From NCBI GenBank assembly GCA_902826605.1, contig CADEFM010000008.1, positions 62,001-126,000 of the forward strand: a DNA stretch of 64,000 nucleotides, in the 5' to 3' direction. The notes beneath the pieces were generated by a model. It saw only the letters and a program-made list of their open reading frames with translations, was not told the DNA's origin and did not search any database. The DNA comes from an uncultured Acidobacteriota bacterium (GTDB taxonomy: Bacteria; Acidobacteriota; Terriglobia; Bryobacterales; Bryobacteraceae). Made by a program: the position numbers and the translations under genes. Below are positions 7,525-38,952 of this stretch, piece after piece; position 1 is the stretch's first letter, and each line of letters starts with the position of its first letter.

Positions 7525-7660
7525 ATTACTGCGTTTGAATTACGCTGCAATCCTTCGGAAACTCCTTGCGTGTCCATTTGGCCCGGCTGAGAGTCTAGCA
7601 GTTGCGCCCGCCTTGGCGGTGACCGCTGATGGCCGCAAGAAAACGGCAAGAGCGAGATTT

Positions 7661-9571
7661 TTACAGCGCCGCGCGCGGCGCGCCGGGGCGGCTCTTCAAA
7701 AAGCCCAAGAATTCCTGCGTGTCCTTGGTCATTCCCCTATCGAAGGCTGCGATAACGTTGCCATCGGGGTCCATCAGTGCGTAATAAGGGATGGCCACCG
7801 TAGCGAACTTATCGTCCTGAAGTTTTTGGTTTTCCTCAGACATCGCATCCGTTCCGTCGGTGTAGAGTTCGACGAGCACCAACTGTTTGGTTGCCTCCGC
7901 GATTTCAGGGCGCGGGAACATATTGGCTTTCATCCAATGGCAATTGGTGCAGGCATAGCCGGTGAAGGTCACCAGCACTAGTTTGTTTTCCTCGCGCGCT
8001 TTGGCCAGCGCCTCTTTGTAGTGATCCTTCATCCAGACCAGAGGGGGCGAGCCTGCGCTACGGCTCAGCAAACCTGGATTGGTGGCGGCTGGCACATATG
8101 CGTCCAGTTCACCGAGTGGCGCTCCAAACATCCCTGGCAAAAGACTGAAGGCGAACACAAGAAATACGCTCGCGACAATCAATCGCCCAATCTTTAGCGG
8201 CTCTCCAGCGTCGATGCCTTCCAGACGTATTAGGCCCAGCAAATAGAGTCCCGCTAGCACGAACAACACGAACCAGCCAGCCAGGAATCGTTCGCGCGTC
8301 AGCAAACCGAGTTGCAAAACCTGGTCAACATTCGACGCGTACTTCAACATCGCGGCCAACAATACAAATCCCATCACCACTTTCACTCGCGCCAGCCAGC
8401 CGCCGCTCTTGGGCAACTTTTTCAAATAGGAAGGAAAAGCCGCCAGGAAAAAGAACGGCGACGCCAAACCCATCGCGAAGCTCATCATCCCCAACACCGG
8501 CTGCAAACCCTTGGATTGTACGGAGGCGACCAAAAGGCTCCCCATAAATGGTCCGATACAAGCAAAAGAGGTCAGGGCGAAAGTCAGTCCCATCAGCAGC
8601 GTGCCTGCGTAGCCACCGCGCCGCGAGGCGGAATCGAGCTTCGTCAACAAGCTCGAGGGCAGAGTGATTTCGAACGCGCCCAACAAACTGAGCGCGAAAA
8701 CGCCGAAGACCACAGTAATGAATCCATTCACCCACGGATTTGCGCCAAGTTGATTCACTCCAAATGGGCCTACCGCCGCCGTCACCCCCAATCCCAGCGC
8801 GCAGAACAGGACGACGATGCCGGATGAAAACACCACGGCCTGCATGATGCCGCCGCGTTGCCCCAGAAAGAACGAGACGGTGATCGGGATCATTGGAAAA
8901 ACGCACGGTGTAAAAATCGCGGCCAGCCCCAGGCCAAATGCGGTAAACAGAAACGCAGCGAAGCCTGAATCGGCGGCAACACTGTCGGACTTTGTGGACG
9001 TGGGCGTGTTACCATTCACCGTCCTCACGGCAACCGCGCCAGGCTTGATCTCCGTAAATCCAGAGGGCACGACGAACGCCGCTTGCACCGGAGCAAGGCC
9101 GTCCACGTTCAGCCGGAACACCACCGTCTTTTTCCTCGGAGGCAGGCACTGCCGTTCATTGCACGCCTGATAGCGCACGTTGGCGGTCAGCTCCACCGCT
9201 TCCGAAGGCGCGTCGCGCTTGAGGGTAACCACTAGCGGCAAATCTACTTCTGTTTCAAAAATTTCCGTATCTAAATTAAAGTTTCCGTCGAACTTACGAA
9301 TGGGCGGCGGCTGATAGACTTTGGACGATTCCACGGCCGGGCTTTCCGCTAATTCAGCGGTAGTGGGAATGGGGCCGCCCTTGGGTGTGGTTAGCGAATA
9401 TAGATGCCAGCCCTCTTGAAACGTAGCTTTGAGATGCAGGGTAACGGACGAACCGGCCGGAACGCGTGCCGATGCCGATGTCATACTCCATTGGATGGGA
9501 TCTAGCCGTTGCGCGAGCGAAGCGCCCGCAAGCGCCAGGACGGACAGGGCGAAGATGGGCGCCTTCTTCAT
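7661..9571 (-). CDS. dsbD: Thiol:disulfide interchange protein DsbD
   Basis: 636 residues with the classical three-part layout. An exported N-terminal domain with the cysteine pair CNERQC (about residue 136) is followed by a multi-pass membrane domain with conserved cysteines in FTPCVFPMIP and FACIGPFMG. A C-terminal thioredoxin-like domain carries GYACTNCHWMKANMF. DsbD carries electrons from cytoplasmic thioredoxin across the inner membrane to periplasmic thiol reductases. All three cysteine pairs are present, so it should be functional. It stands ten bases after plsX in the same direction. Confidence 0.92.
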   Translation of the reverse strand: MKKAPIFALSVLALAGASLAQRLDPIQWSMTSASARVPAGSSVTLHLKATFQEGWHLYSLTTPKGGPIPTTAELAESPAVESSKVYQPPPIRKFDGNFNLDTEIFETEVDLPLVVTLKRDAPSEAVELTANVRYQACNERQCLPPRKKTVVFRLNVDGLAPVQAAFVVPSGFTEIKPGAVAVRTVNGNTPTSTKSDSVAADSGFAAFLFTAFGLGLAAIFTPCVFPMIPITVSFFLGQRGGIMQAVVFSSGIVVLFCALGLGVTAAVGPFGVNQLGANPWVNGFITVVFGVFALSLLGAFEITLPSSLLTKLDSASRRGGYAGTLLMGLTFALTSFACIGPFMGSLLVASVQSKGLQPVLGMMSFAMGLASPFFFLAAFPSYLKKLPKSGGWLARVKVVMGFVLLAAMLKYASNVDQVLQLGLLTRERFLAGWFVLFVLAGLYLLGLIRLEGIDAGEPLKIGRLIVASVFLVFAFSLLPGMFGAPLGELDAYVPAATNPGLLSRSAGSPPLVWMKDHYKEALAKAREENKLVLVTFTGYACTNCHWMKANMFPRPEIAEATKQLVLVELYTDGTDAMSEENQKLQDDKFATVAIPYYALMDPDGNVIAAFDRGMTKDTQEFLGFLKSRPGAPRAAL

Positions 9572-35314: not shown

Positions 35315-35415
35315 GAGGAACAGACCTCACCGCGAACCACTCGCAGGCTGAGTTCTTCGAGCAGGCGGTGAAAGGGAACCGGACGCGTCGCCGATGGATC
35401 AGGGCCCCCAGTTTC

Positions 35416-36357
35416 ATGACGTGCCCCACTTGCAAAGCTGATGCGCAGCGGTTCGGAACCAACCGAAACGGTAGCCAGCGGTTTCGTTGCGTGGAGTGCA
35501 AAAAGACGTTCAGCGCCAAACTCTCAGATCGGATCGTAGGCTCTACTGTCCCGCTTACCCAGGTTGAAAAAGTTCTGCAACTCCTCATCGAAGGTTGCTC
35601 CGTGCGGTCCGCTGAGCGCATCAGCGGCCTACACCGCGATACAATTCTCAAGCTGCTGGTTGCTGCTGGCGAGCAATGCGAAAAGCTCATGGGCCGTCTA
35701 ATCGTCAACGTTCCGGTGGCCGATGTGGAATGTGACGAACTGTGGGGAATAGTAGCCAAGAAAAATAAGCGCGTGAAGTCAGAAGATGATGCGAGCTTTG
35801 GCGATGCGTACACGTTCGTAGCGATTGAGCGCAATACCAAACTCGTTCTGAATTTCGCGCTCGGTAAGCGCAATCAAGCGACCACAGATGTTTTCATCGA
35901 AGGACTGCGGCACGCTACTAGCGGCAAACAGAAATTTCAAATCACAACGGATGGCTTCGCGCCTTACCGCTCCGCGATCACTACAACGTTGCATGATCGC
36001 ATCAGCGGCTTCGCGCAACTCATCAAGGTTTATCGCTCGCCCCAGGAGAGGGAGGCGCGGTATTCACCTGCTGAGGTTGCATCCGTGGAGGTAATCCCAA
36101 TCTACGGAGACCCAGACCCCAAACGTATCTGCACTTCGATTGTGGAGCGCCAAAACCTGACCATGCGGATGCAGATGCGTCGCCTTACGCGCTTGACCAA
36201 TGGCTTCTCTAAGAAATGGGAAAATCTGTGGGCTGCGCTCTGTCTGCACTTCGCCTATTACAACTTCTGCAAGATTCATCGCTCGATTCGCGTTACCCCT
36301 GCGATGCAGGCGGGCATCACGGATCACGTGTGGGACATTGCCGAACTGTTAATATGA
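35416..36357 (+). mobile_element. IS1-like transposase gene
   Basis: 313 residues from the ATG at 35416. A zinc ribbon (MTCPTCKADAQRFG, FRCVECKKTF) and helix-turn-helix (SVRSAERISGLHRDTILKLL) are followed by an IS1-type catalytic core: VECDELWGIV, ITTDGFAPYRSAI and SIVERQNLTMRMQMRRLTRL (D-D-E-like). The frame is open 53 codons further upstream but without protein character. An ATG-overlapping 11-bp repeat (CCCCAGTTTCA) recurs at 36614. I could not define convincing inverted repeats at both ends; the right end may be at GGTACTGTCCTAAAT read from 36615 leftward. It is about two-thirds identical over its last 115 residues to the truncated copy at 37882. Confidence 0.85.
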
Positions 36358-36382
36358 ACACGTTCCCGATTAATGGCCTTCT

Positions 36383-36589
36383 ATGCCGCGATGGGTTGTT
36401 GCGATCATCATGCTTTTTGTTGCTGCTGCCTTCCTTTTACCTCTTTTTTATGAAGCTCGTTACAAGGGGCACTTTTTTATGGGGCGCTATCGCGTATCTC
36501 GCAGAACTTTCCGAATCTTCCACGCCTTCGGATTCGTACTCAGTGCCGTTAGCGCATTCTTGATTTACTTTGGACCTTGGCCCAAATGA
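36383..36589 (+). CDS. Small two-helix membrane protein next to the transposase
   Basis: 68 residues: two hydrophobic helices (VVAIIMLFVAAAFLLPLF and IFHAFGFVLSAVSAFLIY) with a basic connecting segment (RYRVSRRTFR). It begins 26 bases after the transposase stop, in the same direction, and ends 60 bases before phosphofructokinase. No family is recognised. Its position parallels the membrane-protein gene in the transposon derivative at 38411, so it may be a passenger of the IS1-like element. Confidence 0.5.
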   Translation: MPRWVVAIIMLFVAAAFLLPLFYEARYKGHFFMGRYRVSRRTFRIFHAFGFVLSAVSAFLIYFGPWPK

Positions 36590-36648
36590 CATCAACGCAG
36601 ATTTAGGACAGTACCCCAGTTTCAGCCAAAGTCACAGTAGAATGGTGC

Positions 36649-37809: not shown

Positions 37810-37828
37810 CTCTGAGGCCAGGGCTAGC

Positions 37829-37846
37829 CGGATAAATGTTGGTTGA
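37829..37846 (+). repeat. Left terminal inverted repeat
   Basis: CGGATAAATGTTGGTTGA, perfectly complementary over 18 bases to 38842-38859. It directly follows the left copy of the 16-bp direct repeat, sharing its last two bases. Confidence 0.85.
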
Positions 37847-37848
37847 GT

Positions 37849-37870
37849 AGGATAGCGGTGGGGCTATCCT
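37849..37870. repeat. Perfect hairpin just inside the left end
   Basis: AGGATAGC (37849-37856) and GCTATCCT (37863-37870) are inverted repeats with a six-base loop. It lies between the left end of the transposon and the transposase fragment, possibly a leader hairpin that blocks read-through into the transposase, as in other insertion sequences. Confidence 0.55.
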
Positions 37871-37881
37871 ATTGATTTCGC

Positions 37882-38262
37882 TGCGACTTCGCCCAACTCA
37901 TCAAGGTGTATCGTGCGCCCCAGGACGGAGAGAAGCGCTACAGCCCCGCAGAAGTAAGCGCAGTGGAGGTAGTCCCAATCATGGGTCAACCTTACCCCAA
38001 ACGCATTTGTATTTCGATTATCGAGCGCTCAAATCTCAGCCTGCGGATGGGCCTTCGGAGGTTCACTCGTTTAACGAACGGCTTTTCGAAGAAGTTGGAA
38101 AACCACTGGGCAGCGGTCGCGCTCTGGTACTGCTGGTATAACTTCGGGCGCGTTCACAAGTCTCTGCGTATGACGCCCGCCATGGCGTCCGGGATCGCGG
38201 ATCATATCTGGACGGTGCGCGATCTACTGGAGGCCGCATCAGTAATTGGCGACCCGCCCTAA
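37882..38262 (+). pseudogene. 5'-truncated IS1-like transposase
   Basis: From 37885 the frame reads DFAQLIKVYRAPQDGEKRYS, then SAVEVVPIMGQPYPKRICIS, IIERSNLSLRMGLRRFTRLT and so on to the stop. This aligns with the last third of the transposase at 35416 (GFAQLIKVYRSPQ..., ...IVERQNLTMRMQMRRLTRLT). About two thirds of residues agree. The zinc ribbon, helix-turn-helix and first catalytic Asp are missing, so it cannot be an active transposase. Confidence 0.85.
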
Positions 38263-38281
38263 ATCGTCCACCACCAAGCTT

Positions 38282-38314
38282 AAAAGCCCAGCCCGAAACA
38301 GGCTGGGCTTTTCG
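38282..38314 (+). terminator. Strong terminator between transposase fragment and passenger
   Basis: AAAAGCCCAGCC (38282-38293) pairs with GGCTGGGCTTTT (38301-38312), loop CGAAACA, twelve perfect pairs with an A-run and a T-run on the flanks. It should work in both directions and isolates the transposase remnant from the membrane-protein gene. Confidence 0.85.
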
Positions 38315-38410
38315 TTGATTAAAGTTATCTACTGGCCGTGGCATGACACGCCGATACTTAAGGGGAAAGGACCTTGGCATGACCCACACATCGCGAGATG
38401 CGGGATCGGC

Positions 38411-38812
38411 ATGAACTCTAGCCGCAGAATCAAGGCAATCGCTTGTGTTGGGGTCGTGGGCTTTCTAGCGAATTTGTTCGCAGCGTTCCGGGATTACGAC
38501 GACGCCATTTCAAGGGCCGTCGTCACGCTGGGGGCTCTAGGAATGGTGCTTTCAATAACTATACCCGCGATTTTGCTGGTTCAGCGTCAAGAGCGCTCAA
38601 TGGCGCGCAATCCTCAACAGGAGGATTGGACGATCAAGGGTTACTATGCAATCGTCATAACGACGATATTCTCCGCAGCTGTAGCCTTTCAACTCTCATA
38701 CAGACCGTTCGGCGGCTCCCCACTCGCTATTTTAGGGTGGAATTTCAGTCTCATGCTCGCAGTGATTGTGTTGATTGAATGCGTGTACCGATGGAAGGCG
38801 CGAAAACGCTAA
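38411..38812 (+). CDS. Four-helix membrane protein carried by the transposon
   Basis: 133 residues from the ATG at 38411 (GGGATCGGC just before). About four hydrophobic helices: AIACVGVVGFLANLFAAF, VVTLGALGMVLSITIPAILL, YYAIVITTIFSAAVAFQL and ILGWNFSLMLAVIVLIECVY. A basic end follows (RWKARKR). No family is recognised. The frame extends upstream to 38246 but crosses the terminator, so the shorter form is preferred. It ends 29 bases before the right inverted repeat, so it is fully inside the mobile unit. Confidence 0.6.
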   Translation: MNSSRRIKAIACVGVVGFLANLFAAFRDYDDAISRAVVTLGALGMVLSITIPAILLVQRQERSMARNPQQEDWTIKGYYAIVITTIFSAAVAFQLSYRPFGGSPLAILGWNFSLMLAVIVLIECVYRWKARKR

Positions 38813-38841
38813 AGCTTGTTGCCCTTTTACGATTGAGGCCA

Positions 38842-38859
38842 TCAACCAACATTTATCCG
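38842..38859 (-). repeat. Right terminal inverted repeat
   Basis: TCAACCAACATTTATCCG, reverse complement of 37829-37846. It is followed by ACTACC and then the right copy of the 16-bp direct repeat (38866-38881). Confidence 0.85.
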
Positions 38860-38952
38860 ACTACCAGGCCAGGGCTAGCCGACATTTTATGTGAGAGAAT
38901 TCCCGGGCCTGGCACACCATTTCTATGACCACCATCAGGGAGGGCCATCGGA

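Follow-up and report, generated by a model that had tools for sequence, protein, structure and literature searches.

IS1 is the textbook minimal insertion sequence (IS), with ends that read GGTGAT, and IS231 belongs to the IS4 family. Insertion sequences with passenger genes between their ends are termed transporter insertion sequences (tIS) and have been described as particular members of IS families (PMC9330008, PMC7986276). In the mobile insertion cassettes (MIC231 and its relatives), IS ends with a target duplication surround a passenger gene, and a working transposase is missing. According to the summary given in PMC3913671, MIC231A1 of Bacillus cereus is mobilised in trans by IS231A. Tn3-family transposons can carry toxin-antitoxin pairs as passengers (PMC7157771). 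Elements of the MIC and tIS kind are already known. In the open-access literature searched, no paper was found on passenger genes in the IS1 family or on an IS1 clade that always bears cargo; a lack of reports does not prove novelty.

The window analysed here is a stretch of 64,000 nucleotides from an uncultured soil acidobacterium of the family Bryobacteraceae (contig CADEFM010000008.1, positions 62,001 to 126,000). At 37823–38865, it contains a single-copy insertion of 1,043 bp with matched inverted ends and the 8-bp target duplication AGGCCAGG on both sides. Very probably, this unit derives from an IS1-family transposon, carries cargo and is non-autonomous. Similar to MIC231 and its relatives, IS-type ends and a duplication enclose a non-transposase gene and no functional transposase lies inside. 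It differs from MIC231 in its IS1-family ends and in the transposase remnant that it keeps, and mobilisation of the MIC type is suggested here by the sequence. The tIS definition fits the full-length relatives of the unit (2.0–4.8 kb), whereas the unit itself, with its truncated transposase, does not combine a complete transposase with a passenger. On the best reading, it is an MIC-like derivative of an IS1-family ‘transporter IS’ clade that would have been mobilised in trans.

Ends and target-site duplication

The left copy of the duplication AGGCCAGG (37815–37822, no strand assigned) was placed by means of the relatives, which are delimited with 8-bp duplications. It is followed by the left terminal inverted repeat GCTAGCCGGATAAATGTTGGTTGA on the plus strand (37823–37846), which has three mismatches to the 25-bp family end GGTAGTCGGATAAATGTTGGTTGAT. 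The right terminal inverted repeat lies on the minus strand (38842–38865, inward GGTAGTCGGATAAATGTTGGTTGA), and the exact 24-mer also occurs on a phage contig. The right copy of AGGCCAGG (38866–38873, no strand assigned) was placed by a blind pair search. The perfect inverted ends of 18 bp that the initial annotation had described were seen at 37829–37846 and 38842–38859; extended beyond these limits, they reach 22 bp with one mismatch. Comparison with the relatives gave true ends of about 24 bp with outer limits at 37823 and 38865 and a family form starting with GGTAGT. The left tip of the present element (GCTAGC) departs from this family tip. With its short inverted ends and its 8-bp duplication, the unit has what is expected of the IS1 family (a target duplication of about 8–9 bp).

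For the blind pair search, GGTAGT-like tips in inverted orientation together with an 8-bp duplication were required, and shuffled sequence served as control. The present element was delimited at 37823–38865 along with nine others in the fetched loci, and none was found in shuffled sequence. Among 80 loci recruited by their transposase, elements were delimited in 44 more, again with none in the shuffles. The family duplication was therefore taken as 8 bp.

Flanking direct repeats of 16 bp had initially been assigned to the unit. A perfect 16-bp repeat AGGCCAGGGCTAGCCG exists, but the target duplication is most likely the 8 bp of AGGCCAGG, as judged from the about 60 relatives with 8-bp duplications. 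The second half of the repeat, GCTAGCCG (38874–38881, plus strand), is a copy of the element’s own left tip. Since it stands directly after the right duplication, the direct repeat runs 8 bp beyond the duplication here, while this extension amounts to 0–2 bp in 51 of 56 elements. It is unlikely that the target duplication is really 16 bp long and that the element lost the last 8 bases of its left end upon insertion. Such a duplication would account for the perfect repeat, which a standard 8-bp duplication alone does not explain, and for a left tip that matches the right flank and not the element’s own right tip, from which GCTAGCCG differs. The about 60 related elements that fit 8 bp, with their short extensions, argue against it, and so does a tandem of a 5′-truncated and a full-length element at another locus (L157, 691–5225). 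The two elements of this tandem have identical 26-bp left ends and share an 8-bp duplication, and the second element begins directly after the duplication common to both, which shows a precedent for end sequence in this position. With a duplication of 8 bp, GCTAGCCG on the right would likeliest be either what is left of the tip of a second, tandem element or a target that resembles an end. A delimitation with ends starting at CGGATAAA and a 16-bp duplication was dropped because the relatives show GGTAGT tips and 8-bp duplications.

Transposase remnant and family assignment

The IS1-like character named in the initial annotation was borne out by the full-length relatives, whose best match was NCBIfam NF033558 ‘IS1 family transposase’. 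E-values were 1.6e-25 for the full-length copy in the window and between 4e-15 and 6e-30 for the others; one of the full-length relatives scored above the curated cut-off of this profile and the others below. The window’s full-length copy also passed the cut-off of PF03400, and the remnant alone reached only 0.0039. Plasmid homologues carry the NCBI name ‘IS1 family transposase’. A PDB sequence search with the transposase profile gave no useful match.

The 3′ remnant of the transposase gene lies at 37875–38262 on the plus strand and contains an ORF of 118 aa (37906–38262). It corresponds to the C-terminal third of the enzyme, as had been proposed, and aligns to residues 198–312 of a relative with 313 aa that is encoded in another part of the window. 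Over 111 aa, it is 77% identical to the full-length transposase of a different Bryobacteraceae genome. The remnant retains the E of the DDE triad, as assigned by inference from invariant columns, and has lost the first two catalytic D residues, the zinc ribbon and the HTH, all of which are present in the full-length relatives. Thus, it cannot work as a transposase, and the unit is an IS1-family derivative and not an autonomous member of the family, in agreement with the earlier view of a non-autonomous element.

Transposase matches in 23 genomes of the genus comprised 24 full or near-full copies, 40 C-terminal-only, 3 N-terminal-only and 3 internal fragments, counts in which short C-terminal pieces may be favoured by easier detection. 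Away from contig edges, 39 C-terminal-only fragments were opposed to 2 N-terminal-only ones, and for fragments of at least 90 aa off contig edges the ratio was 15 to 1 (binomial p 0.0005). The simplest reason for this bias would be that deletions begin at the left end and leave the passenger and the end on the right side in place. The same counts would also be expected if the C-terminal piece had a job of its own, for example as a dominant-negative inhibitor or by providing expression signals for the passenger, and were spared by deletions for that reason. This is very unlikely, as many remnants are short and some contain stop codons, and the bias is equally expected from selection for the downstream passenger or from easier detection of the C-terminus.

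Hairpin, terminator-like stem and passenger gene

A hairpin of eight pairs, AGGATAGC...GCTATCCT, was seen just inside the left end on the plus strand (37849–37872), both in the sequence and by folding, as previously noted. Stems in this position were also found in two relatives (L080 and L114) and are absent from the others. Between the transposase remnant and the passenger lies a 12-pair stem with a T-rich 3′ arm (38282–38312, plus strand). It had been described as a twelve-pair terminator. The stem exists, but a separate check gave a shorter one with no excess over chance, and it is regarded here as a possible terminator. An Rfam search gave no match.

The passenger gene is located on the plus strand (38411–38812) and likely encodes a protein of 133 aa from the ATG at 38411. 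Its frame contains 188 open codons, a length reached in none of 2,000 mononucleotide shuffles; 133 codons were reached in 44 of 2,000. The protein is predicted to have 3–4 transmembrane helices with an N-in/C-in charge pattern. From the initial description as an intact four-helix membrane-protein gene, the intact ORF between remnant and right end was retained, whereas the four helices come only from a low-confidence model (mean pLDDT 62.6). No credible homologue was found in 200 genomes of the family (one 29% match at E 0.008) or among all ORFs of the other elements. The match to NCBIfam was weak and far below cut-off, and a fold search with the low-confidence model gave no E-value below 0.001. 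The passenger would presumably be expressed from its own signals beyond the terminator-like stem.

Position and copy number in the host genome

The element is inserted 13 bp past the stop codon of a phosphofructokinase gene. The initial annotation had proposed to look for further copies and for empty target sites. With up to two mismatches allowed, a search of the 4.49-Mb host genome (30 contigs) gave the end only at the present element, and the copy number of the unit is one. Nearly the same ends around other interiors were found in other genomes and on a phage contig. A clean empty site was not found: the joined flank had no match in the 22 congeneric genomes. Both the element and the genes that follow are missing from the nearest relative (82% in the adjacent gene); in congeners, this adjacent gene is conserved and the downstream region is different. 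No partner element with matching ends was found in the host genome. The present unit is therefore probably stranded now, and with no other copy in the genome either, it may be an old relic.

A second IS1-like element was observed at the opposite side of the phosphofructokinase gene (window 35416–36615). It consists of a full-length transposase gene (35416–36357), a 68-aa ORF for a two-helix membrane protein (36383–36589) and a right end (36590–36615, inward GGTACTGTCCTAAATCTGCGTTGATG). A left end was not found for this element. The 8-mer CCAGTTTC after its right end recurs at 35408–35415, directly ahead of the transposase ATG.

A remnant of the same subfamily at G000:C4:187976–188556 (L016) is accompanied by a TolQ/ExbB-like passenger of 123 aa (best profile match TolQ, E 6.9e-18). 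In the slot after the transposase, seven of nine passengers examined in the host genome resembled membrane proteins, seemingly more than among average genes. A 38-bp unit in which two ends of the family are joined head to head, with an empty interior, was observed at L066 2141–2178 (G000:C23, about 7640–7677) and is flanked by GCCAATTT twice.

A cargo-bearing clade of IS1-family transposons

About 60 elements of the clade were delimited by their ends and an 8-bp duplication, namely, 55 of a first set, the one on the phage contig, L157-E2 (counted although its duplication has one mismatch) and three from Hoeflea, Acidiphilium and Mesorhizobium plasmids. The titles of the records that contain them name Acidobacteriota, Planctomycetota, Alphaproteobacteria, other Proteobacteria and Tectomicrobia, though titles of metagenome-assembled genomes may be wrong in places. 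The clade resembles the IS1 family in its transposase profile, its 8-bp duplication and its GGTAGT ends. Unlike in IS1, the transposase is encoded by one ORF of about 315 aa, which has an additional C-terminal third outside the 199-position IS1 profile, and the elements are longer and carry cargo. All 41 delimited elements whose transposase has 260 aa or more measure 2.0–4.8 kb and include a minimum of 1,069 bp outside the transposase, and none is a bare IS. Whereas tIS have been described as particular members of their families, extra DNA is thus found in 41 of 41 elements with a near-complete transposase here. Since no limits could be set for 36 of the 80 loci, likely due to contig edges and diverged ends, ‘always cargo’ applies to delimited elements. 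This group of IS1-type transposons is large and apparently little described, and all its members seem to carry extra genes.

The cargo includes SocA/Panacea antitoxins, MqsA-family antitoxins, XRE plus IrrE-type peptidase proteins, DNA methylases, Mrr-type nucleases and many membrane or unassigned proteins. A small lysine/glycine-rich protein is encoded at the left end of 12 elements. The clade thereby resembles the Tn3-family carriers of toxin-antitoxin modules, from which it differs in transposase family and end structure. In three Rhodobacterales-type elements (L163, L165 and L167), a gene for a SocA/Panacea (DUF4065)-type antitoxin precedes another small gene (116–130 aa), whose product has a membrane segment in L165; by their sequence, these are candidate mobile toxin-antitoxin pairs. 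One element (L076, 378–2590) carries a DUF3738/TIGR03435 gene; the family has its name from Solibacter, and elements of this type could partly account for its expansion.

Short derivatives and proposed mobilisation in trans

The 25-bp right end with up to three mismatches was found in 8 of 200 genomes of the family, including the host genome. In seven further genomes of Bryobacteraceae and at another site of the host genome, it is 22–24/25 identical. Full-length transposases lie beside it in two loci of other genera (L026 and L027), and the transposase that is 77% identical to the remnant directly adjoins the shared end. Next to it, other loci have unrelated genes, which are accompanied by a transposase tail in L019, L020 and L029 and by no transposase in others (e.g. 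L022, L024 and L030). That the end similarity is fortuitous, and the unit ordinary intergenic DNA containing an old piece of transposase and a small gene, has next to no probability. Nothing but the single copy in the genome speaks for it. Matches to 17 bp of the end with up to three mismatches occurred twice in the window against 0.06 expected by chance, and the same ends surround other interiors in other species and on a phage; the shared right ends, the blind pair search and the phage-contig derivative refute this reading.

The L024/L080 element is a clean derivative of 497 bp with a 117-aa gene, no transposase and the duplication GGTGACTT. Further short derivatives with ends and duplications measured 824 bp (L072), 545 bp (L090), 513 bp (L074) and 380 bp (L087). 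On the phage contig (L195, 131–433), a derivative of 303 bp is flanked by AATCAATG twice as a clean 8-bp duplication. Its right end is 25/25 identical, it retains only the last codons of the transposase gene and it lies near a gene for the terminase large subunit. Given the clean duplications of the 497-bp and 303-bp derivatives, truncated derivatives of the present subfamily appear to insert, phage DNA included. Two identical 2.96-kb units on viral contigs (L198/L200) were not counted, as they have identical flanks (one phage) and no matching duplication, and a match at L201 was discarded as a different sequence type.

The unit would have originated from a larger element of the clade, in which passenger genes accompany a transposase of about 315 aa encoded by a single ORF. 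A deletion within this element, starting just inside the left end, would have taken the 5′ two thirds of the transposase gene and spared its last third, the passenger and both ends. A full-length transposase may then have acted in trans on ends of the GGTAGTCGGATAAATGTTGGTTGA type, leading to insertion behind the phosphofructokinase gene and duplication of 8 bp. Mobilisation by a related full-length transposase is supported indirectly by the nearly identical right ends in L026 and L027, by the L157 tandem and by the clean duplications of truncated or transposase-less copies. The L157 pair, whose two membrane-protein passengers differ, comes closest to a natural demonstration of such mobilisation, as far as sequence comparison can suggest it.

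That the truncated form itself moved is less certain than the reading as a derivative overall. Alternatively, a complete cargo-bearing IS1-like element could have decayed by deletion after insertion, and the truncated form would never have moved. This dead relic, which partly overlaps with the best reading, is rather unlikely. It would agree with the single copy, with the absence of a partner from the genome and with the frequency of transposase fragments in the genus (40 C-terminal-only against 24 full or near-full copies), and the ancestor would have had a passenger too, as all 41 delimited full-transposase elements do. The good preservation of both ends and of the duplication argues against it. 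The short truncated relatives with clean duplications, one of them on a phage, suggest that truncated forms move, but are silent on the present copy. The MIC-like derivative mobilised in trans is therefore kept as the best reading.

Biological implications

It is possible, if still on the doubtful side, that the cargo-bound IS1 clade sheds small cassettes by frequent 5′ deletion of the transposase gene, each with a different small gene. Clade and cassettes would then act together as a gene-shuffling system, within acidobacterial soils and elsewhere, that can also ride on phages and plasmids, and toxin-antitoxin and DNA-modification genes would belong to the element’s own strategy. If true, a widespread IS1 branch in which all complete elements sampled bear cargo would change the reading of ‘IS1 family transposase’ annotations, as the adjoining hypothetical genes would often be parts of a transposon. 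Soil bacteria would gain a cassette-like route for single small genes, including toxin-antitoxin and methylase genes.
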